Origin: Brachyhypopomus gauderio
Lineage: Eukaryota; Chordata; Actinopteri; Gymnotiformes; Hypopomidae
DNA: 64,000 nt
Assembly: GCF_052324685.1 (NCBI RefSeq)
Contig: NC_135220.1
Location: forward strand, 23,974,823-24,038,822
Direction of reading: 5' to 3'
Part shown: piece after piece, positions 28,601 through 31,600 of the stretch
Layout of the letters: every line of letters begins with the position of its first letter
How positions within the stretch are numbered: position 1 is the stretch's first letter
The notes under the pieces: model-generated
The model's database searches: none
What the model was told of the DNA's origin: nothing
The model's input: the letters and a program-made list of their open reading frames with translations, nothing else
Translations under genes and position numbers: made by a program

Positions 28601-31600
28601 ATCAATATAGATATTTAGGTTAAACATACTGACATAAATGCATATGTAGTAACATATTGCTAACTAATTATGGCCTCACCCTACAGAATTAATACAATAT
28701 TTTTGTGTATATATTTTCTGCAGTGTTTAATGAAGGTGTTTGCCGGCTCCCCTCAGACTGTGTTTAATGAAGGTGTTAGCCAGCTGACCTCAGACCGTTT
28801 TAAACATTTAGTGTTTGGGTTCTGTGGTGTTTAATGATGGTGTTAGCCGGCTCACCTCAGACTGTGTTTAATGAAGGTGTTAGCCAGCTCACCTCAGACT
28901 GTGTTTAATGAAGGTGTTAGCCGGCTCACCTCAGACTGTGTTTAATGAAGGTGTTAGCCAGCTCACCTCAGACTGTGTTTAATGAAGGTGTTAGCCAGCT
29001 CACCTCAGACTGTGTTTAATGAAGGTGTTAGCCAGCTCACCTCAGACTGTGTTTAATGATGGTGTTAGCCGGCTCACCTCAGACTGTGTTTAATGAAGGT
29101 GTTAGCCAGCTCACCTCAGACTGTGTTTAATGAAGGTGTTAGCCAGCTCACCTCAGACTGTGTTTAATGAAGGTGTTAGCCGGCTCACCTCAGACTGTGT
29201 TTAATGAAGGTGTTAGCCAGCTCACCTCAGACTGTGTTTAATGAAGGTGTTAGCCGGCTCACCTCAGACTGTGTTTAATGAAGGTGTTAGCCGGCTCACC
29301 TCAGACTGTGTTTAATGAAGGTGTTAGCCGGCTCACCTCAGACTGTGTTTAATGAAGGTGTTAGCCAGCTCACCTCAGACTGTGTTTAATGAAGGTGTTA
29401 GCCGGCTCACCTCAGACTGTGTTTAATGAAGGTGTTAGCCAGCTCACCTCAGACTGTGTTTAATGAAGGTGTTAGCCAGCTCACCTCAGACTGTGTTTAA
29501 TGAAGGTGTTAGCCAGCTCACCTCAGACCGTTTTAAACATTTAGTGTTTGGGTTCTGTGGTGTTTAATGAAGGTGTTAGCCGGCTCACCTCAGACTGTGT
29601 TTAATGAAGGTGTTAGCCGGCTCACCTCAGACTGTGTTTAATGAAGGTGTTAGCCGGCTCACCTCAGACTGTGTTTAATGAAGGTGTTAGCCGGCTCACC
29701 TCAGACTGTGTTTAATGAAGGTGTTAGCCGGCTCACCTCAGACTGTGTTTAATGAAGGTGTTAGCCGGCTCACCTCAGACTGTGTTTAATGAAGGTGTTA
29801 GCCGGCTCACCTCAGACTGTGTTTAATGAAGGTGTTAGCCGGCTCACCTCAGACTGTGTTTAATGAAGGTGTTAGCCGGCTCACCTCAGACTGTGTTTAA
29901 TGAAGGTGTTAGCCGGCTCACCTCAGACTGTGTTTAATGAAGGTGTTAGCCGGCTCACCTCAGACTGTGTTTAATGAAGGTGTTAGCCGGCTCACCTCAG
30001 ACTGTGTTTAATGAAGGTGTTAGCCGGCTCACCTCAGACTGTGTTTAATGAAGGTGTTAGCCGGCTCACCTCAGACTGTGTTTAATGAAGGTGTTAGCCA
30101 GCTCACCTCAGACTGTGTTTAATGAAGGTGTTAGCCAGCTCACCTCAGACTGTGTTTAATGAAGGTGTTAGCCAGCTGACCTCAGACCGTTTTAAACATT
30201 TAGTGTTTGGGTTCTGTGGTGTTTAATGAAGGTGTTAGCCGGCTCACCTCAGACTGTGTTTAATGAAGGTGTTAGCCGGCTCACCTCAGACTGTGTTTAA
30301 TGAAGGTGTTAGCCGGCTCACCTCAGACTGTGTTTAATGAAGGTGTTAGCCGGCTCACCTCAGACTGTGTTTAATGAAGGTGTTAGCCGGCTCACCTCAG
30401 ACTGTGTTTAATGAAGGTGTTAGCCGGCTCACCTCAGACTGTGTTTAATGAAGGTGTTAGCCGGCTCACCTCAGACTGTGTTTAATGAAGGTGTTAGCCG
30501 GCTCACCTCAGACTGTGTTTAATGAAGGTGTTAGCCGGCTCACCTCAGACTGTGTTTAATGAAGGTGTTAGCCGGCTCACCTCAGACTGTGTTTAATGAA
30601 GGTGTTAGCCGGCTCACCTCAGACTGTGTTTAATGAAGGTGTTAGCCAGCTCACCTCAGACTGTGTTTAATGAAGGTGTTAGCCAGCTCACCTCAGACTG
30701 TGTTTAATGAAGGTGTTAGCCAGCTCACCTCAGACTGTGTTTAATGAAGGTGTTAGCCAGCTCACCTCAGACTGTGTTTAATGAAGGTGTTAGCCAGCTC
30801 ACCTCAGACTGTGTTTAATGAAGGTGTTAGCCGGCTCACCTCAGACCGTTTTGGCACCACGTCCTCATGAGAACTGCTGGCAGTGAGGGGCTTGAGTTCA
30901 GTGTCAGGACTGCAGGACTTCTCTGTGCCTAAACCTGAACTCTCATCAGTCTGCAAAGACAGTCCAGCAAAATCACACCATTACCGGGAGATGAGCTCAA
31001 CATGATTTGAGACGCACAAAAATTTCAATTGACAACAAAATCTTGACATTTTATTGGAATAATGGCTCATGATTATTTACTGAAAGACTGATAAAATTAA
31101 AAAGCAAGAAAAGCAAGATACATAACACAATGTGGATTTAAACCTGCACGTGTTAGTGGCCTTATATAACCAATTTTTTTTTGGACATAACGCCTGTTCC
31201 TGTTCACTAAGTACTGAGTGATTAAGCTAATGGAATATCACCATGGGGCAGATAATGCACAGCTTCCATCAGCTTCTATCATTGCCGCCGAAACATTAAC
31301 TCTCCCTGGGGGGCGGGGCACCTACATTAGCCTCAGTGTTTGGGAGGCTTCCGTTGGTTGAAGTGAGAGTGGACAGGTCAGAGGAGGGCGTGTTCAGAGC
31401 TTCTCCCGAGCCTGACGCCTCCTCCGTTTGATCCGGCCTCTTTGAAAGCACCACCAGAGGATCATCCGGGCTCTGTTCCTTCAGCAGAAGGGTGGAAGAA
31501 AGATCCGTTTAAGAGGCCTCAGGCATAAGAAGGGCTAACCTGAGAAGAATTGTAGCATGAGCCAAAGTGAGTTCTCTTTTTTTAGTTTCCCTTTTTAAAA

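Follow-up and report, generated by a model that had tools for sequence, protein, structure and literature searches.

A minisatellite in Brachyhypopomus gauderio arvcf that repeats the donor and the last 13 bases of a coding exon

When the splice donor of a coding exon is followed by dozens of copies of itself, which copy is used, and how could such an arrangement have arisen? The question is raised by arvcf in Brachyhypopomus gauderio, where an earlier reading of the letters alone (the sequence-only reading) described a 37-bp minisatellite that multiplies the 5′ splice site of exon 3 about 55 times, and proposed that the array might tune exon 3 splicing, act as a U1 decoy or feed recursive splicing. 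We analysed the array within the whole 64,000-nucleotide stretch of DNA that contains it (the window).

Among the best 120 of 4902 matches listed for the joined partial product was splicing regulator ARVCF isoform X2 of B. gauderio (P0001), with 99% identity over the whole query. This protein, the single representative of a cluster of five sequences, was used as a public gene model; it runs from 41368 to 17093 on the minus strand. Exon numbers below are those of the sequence-only reading, whose exon 3 is the fourth coding block of the P0001 model. The model joins exon 3 to exon 4 at 30840/28123, and the relevant features are as follows (a slash marks a splice site).

31326..31478, minus strand: arvcf exon 2, 153 nt, phase 0-0, open, ending NTEAN/GTAGGT; in P0001.
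30840..30950, minus strand: arvcf exon 3, 111 nt, open, phase 0-0, encoding TDESS...VVPKRSE; in P0001.
30834..30842, minus strand: exon 3 splice donor GAG/GTGAGC, in the first array unit, joined to 28123 in P0001.
28124..30839, minus strand: intron 3, 2716 nt, of which the array makes up 78%.
27181..28123, minus strand: arvcf exon 4, beginning GAA, phase 0; in P0001.

The exon 3 motif ESSGxGTE was present in 32 of the 120 listed homologues, and by protein comparison the exon is conserved among these 32. Elsewhere in the gene, P0001 starts with MACGWFCLW... at 41368 and an exon at 39.5 kb (41368-39310, minus strand); 13 of the 14 characin and catfish sequences P0003-P0016 start with MPAEVKE. 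A 21-nt arvcf microexon (EEWFNHC; 25303-25283, minus strand) is included in P0001 and P0010 and is missing from P0009, which comes from the same catfish species as P0010. The window was also searched for a coiled coil resembling the N-terminal one of human ARVCF, and none was found.

Tandem Repeats Finder placed the minisatellite at 28723-30846, with a period of 37, 58.0 copies and 93% matches. The reported multiplication of the donor was confirmed. The first head is the last six nucleotides of exon 3 (30845-30840), and 55 TCTGAGG heads follow one another on the minus strand. The hexamer after TCTGAG is GTGAGC in 52, GTCAGC in two and GGGAGC in one; in terms of the 9-mer donor, 52 of the 55 heads carry GAGGTGAGC, two carry GAGGTCAGC and one carries GAGGGGAGC, which has no GT. 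The window has a single further GAGGTGAGC outside the array, on the plus strand. Two other elements ascribed to the unit are likewise there: 54 of the 55 units keep an intact CTAAC, which lies 17 nt from the AG, and of the 54 later units 51 have acceptor-like CACAG immediately ahead of TCTGAG, with GTGAGC following in 50 of these 51. In the remaining three, TCTGAG is preceded by AAAACGG, and each of these units comes right after a 67-nt unit, headed at 30253, 29594 and 28861; the 67-nt units were absent from the first reading. The commonest variant within the unit is a C-to-T change at position 13 (20 of 55), which leaves the donor unaffected; other changes in the first 35 unit columns are rare (six cells). 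Along the array the C/T states fall into 19 runs, fewer than the mean of 26.5 (p 0.02), a pattern that fits block copying, if weakly. A comparison of the 23-base unit pattern with viral contigs gave no match.

28723..30846, minus strand: 37-bp minisatellite, 55 TCTGAGG heads from 30845 to 28757, 52 with GTGAGC.
30187..30253, minus strand: first 67-nt unit, in which a 33-nt in-frame segment (30213-30181, 11 residues) starts behind CACCACAG.
29528..29594, minus strand: second 67-nt unit, with 33-nt segment 29554-29522.
28795..28861, minus strand: third 67-nt unit, with 33-nt segment 28821-28789.

The array does not stop at the exon boundary. The last 13 nt of exon 3, AAAACGGTCTGAG, recur at three internal heads, and the 14-mer AAAACGGTCTGAGG starts at 30852 (in exon 3), 30193, 29534 and 28801, successive copies being 659, 659 and 733 bp apart. 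Upstream of the 13 shared exonic bases the agreement falls to 2 of 20 positions, which makes a sharp edge. The exon tip is itself part of the array and heads a 659-bp higher-order repeat, a feature that the first reading missed. The array copies are present by descent, and therefore chance is not the issue; for the AAAACGG that stands before TCTGAG in the exon and in the three internal heads, chance at one given site is 4^-7 (~6e-5). The repeat is made up of three blocks and a remnant.

30194..30852, minus strand: higher-order block 1, 659 bp, with the last 13 nt of exon 3 at its head.
29535..30193, minus strand: higher-order block 2, 659 bp, with 5 mismatches to block 1 (5/659).
28802..29534, minus strand: higher-order block 3, 733 bp, with 9 and 8 mismatches and 74 gap columns against blocks 1 and 2, respectively.
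28723..28801, minus strand: remnant fourth head, with two degenerate units (GTCAGC, GGGAGC).

Splice site strength was scored with simple matrices, a human one for the donors, and 16 arvcf donors (the array donor included) and 16 acceptors were compared. On a 5′ splice-site model the array donor scored 10.2 bits, at the top of the 16 donors (median 6.5), where each protein block end was represented by the top-scoring GT no more than 12 nt away, a choice that favours the comparison set and probably misplaces a few. Only 0.24% of 3738 other GTs on the minus strand reach 10.2 bits, and in pairing energy with the U1 5′ end the array donor ranked second of 16, at -9.7 against -9.8 kcal/mol. Among the acceptors, against an arvcf median of 7.8, the acceptor of exon 3 itself is moderate at 6.3, the CACAG before the hexamer scored 4.4, a value that 11% of 4032 background AGs equal or exceed, and the acceptor of the 33-nt segment scored 3.5. 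From a donor in the array the nearest acceptor is 31 nt away and the next 68 nt; 31 nt is too short for a vertebrate intron.

The consequences of leaving the first donor are uniform. It had been argued that moving the donor by a unit would read into an in-frame TGA, and this held for all 54 later heads, 53 of which have a GT; the stop falls at codon 49 of the extended exon.

30804..30806, minus strand: in-frame TGA past the first donor, encountered in 54 of 54 extensions.

Exons lying wholly inside the array were also considered. Of 1424 acceptor-head combinations, 51 were open in frame as a 6-nt Ser-Glu segment, 50 of them with a GT donor; for the 33-nt segment of the 67-nt units the count was 3 of 61, two ending at the weaker GTCAGC. 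Among the 1424 and 61 combinations together, these two segments were the sole open in-frame exons.

RNA structure was considered as a rule of donor choice and set aside, as the folding results did not agree on any advantage of the first donor; we make no structural claim. Five single-unit stretches folded as RNA were no better than dinucleotide shuffles (z 0.00, 0.29, -0.04, -0.28 and 0.37), and three folded as DNA were little better (z -0.72, -0.43 and -0.52). A 254-nt stretch running from exon 3 into the array was somewhat more stable than its shuffles (z -1.97, 3/200). In accessibility, donor 1 was more open than most copies in two local settings (rank 4 and 7 of 55) and less so in a third (48 of 55), and when the donor was kept and the remainder of the unit shuffled, 47 of 300 and 108 of 300 arrays concealed the donor equally well.

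The recurring exon tip and the near-identical 659-bp blocks point to a tandem duplication with its start 13 nt within the exon, and to later unequal exchange. Our preferred reading, which we hold to be probable, is that the array, headed by the last 13 bases of exon 3 plus its donor, stems from a boundary-spanning duplication, and that the later donors are spare and mostly passed over. A 67-bp segment with 13 exonic and 54 intronic bases would have been copied in tandem, a 37-bp shortened form of it would then have been multiplied, and the 659-bp blocks would have been copied last, by unequal exchange. A distal relic of the founding unit is weakly recognisable beyond the last unit, but suggestive only, as equally good scores are reached at 542 of 21319 positions, or at 261 of 6688 when only positions of similar base composition are compared. 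In splicing, the first donor would be preferred because its exon, at 111 nt, is the shortest available, in line with exon definition, and the weak CACAG and 33-nt acceptors, the lack of UGC and the 31- and 68-nt distances also favour its use. The moderate acceptor of exon 3 makes the exon-definition argument weaker, and in competition among equal donors the choice often falls on the one closer to the 3′ exon, from which the reverse outcome would be expected. Slippage to later donors would yield exons of 148, 185, 222 nt and so on, each with the premature TGA, so that nonsense-mediated decay of such mRNAs is expected. Such an array would be near-neutral, or else would slightly restrain arvcf output, to a degree that may vary with repeat number.

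A minisatellite with the same anatomical plan offers a more active alternative. In the human interferon-induced gene IFI6 the units are 12 bp long and add whole codons, giving in-frame isoforms. That minisatellite (in gene 6-16/IFI6) provides multiple splice donors (Turri et al. 1995, NAR 23:1854), and a citing report describes two downstream repeat units used as donors, with three mRNAs as the result (PMC4526556). The likeness is that the arvcf array also starts at the 3′ end of a coding exon and that its units carry a good donor. If arvcf worked in this way, several of the first donors would be used, and the ratio of productive to stop-containing mRNAs, set by U1 level or repeat number, would regulate the gene. 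Strong, identical donors at 37-nt steps fit such regulation. However, the 37-bp step brings a stop in every extension, which leaves no protein isoforms to be made, and the donor in the P0001 model is the first; we therefore think this possible but unlikely. The arvcf array differs further in its ~55 heads and in a higher-order repeat that includes 13 coding bases, and use of its later donors is a prediction. By analogy it looks like a larger, out-of-frame variant of the IFI6-type minisatellite. A bolder proposal, which we regard as decidedly unlikely, is that the array is a self-renewing donor and output dial: unequal exchange would change intron length or replace a damaged donor with the coding frame untouched, and repeat number would set the leak to stop-containing, decaying arvcf forms. 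This proposal builds on the exon tip being one of the repeat units, aligned with 51 further donors of the same sequence that could serve as back-up.

Two further readings concern the unit and the exon tip themselves. The sequence-only reading had pointed out that a TCTGAG microexon would insert Ser-Glu in frame, and the CACAG/TCTGAG/GTGAGC units, or the 33-nt segment with its 11 residues, might sometimes be included. The arithmetic of the hexamer stood, with CACAG before it and a GT donor after it in 50 units; CTAAC lies 17 nt from the AG, and nothing but the 6-nt and 33-nt segments is open in frame. The rest of the idea was weakened: both acceptors are weak, the nearest lies only 31 nt from a donor, the 33-nt segment has the weaker GTCAGC donor in two of its three copies, and the P0001 model has no such insert. 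A UGC motif and a pyrimidine tract upstream are features of SRRM4-dependent neural microexons, and TGC was not found in the array unit; its 4.4-bit acceptor also sets it apart from that class. Microexon inclusion is accordingly very improbable. The other reading reverses the order of events: the array would have arisen in the intron and gene conversion would then have rewritten the exon tip, from an ancestral KQLE to KRSE. Exon 3 ends in KRSE in P0001 alone among the 32 motif-bearing sequences (KRSE occurs at other positions in the protein in four other sequences), in KQLE in 14 characin and catfish sequences, and in QPE in Electrophorus, and the altered residues fall inside the shared 13 nt. 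As protein evidence, the KRSE end is compatible with either an exon change before copying or conversion from the array. On the other hand, every unit has its donor aligned with the end of the exon, as an origin of the unit at the boundary would most simply explain, and one genome cannot give the order of events. We consider conversion rather unlikely.

The preferred duplication across the boundary has partial parallels elsewhere. Tandem repeats at exon-intron boundaries alter splicing patterns in human duplicated genes (De Grassi and Ciccarelli 2009, PMC2812944), and the cases described there share with arvcf a minisatellite expansion at such a boundary; they involve novel introns or repeat-coding exons, whereas the arvcf repeats remain intronic in the public model. 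In the Rogers model, introns are gained by tandem duplication of an AGGT segment (PMC4974935). Each arvcf copy has AG/GT, so a potential donor and acceptor are supplied; in contrast to the exonic segment of that model, 54 of the 67 nt of the proposed arvcf founding segment are intronic and 13 exonic. Recursive splicing through an AG/GT ratchet, proposed for the array at the outset, involves acceptor-grade sequence fused to a donor; the AG/GT of the arvcf unit scored -2.9 as an acceptor and has a competing CACAG 6 nt upstream, so that the proposal found poor support. Among the matches listed in a search with partial coverage of the literature, we found no account of this fish array.

With a 111-nt exon and, from its end onwards, 52 strong donors of identical sequence, most of them 37 nt apart, the locus would serve as a natural experiment in spliceosomal choice among equal donors, and as a test of whether exon length or order decides. 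If array length differs between fish, each allele would amount to a dose test. Since the tip of the exon has become part of a higher-order minisatellite, its coding residues may evolve jointly with the repeat units.

The window holds several other features. A Tc1/Sleeping-Beauty-type transposase, split over two overlapping frames (21058-22093, plus strand; Pfam PF25787, PF01498, PF13358), lies antisense within an arvcf intron, between the blocks at 22654 and 18449. Two further minisatellites are present, one of 44 bp x 7.8 at 36596-36936, between the arvcf blocks at 39.3 kb and 31.5 kb, and one of 28 bp x 11.3 at 9100-9415. Rfam gave one match, unrelated to the array, to the UnaL2 LINE 3′ element (RF00436; 12620-12673, plus strand). 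Reading frames on the minus strand encode a DHHC palmitoyltransferase (46403-46924), presumably zdhhc8, and a LEM-domain protein (59345-59845), probably ankle2.
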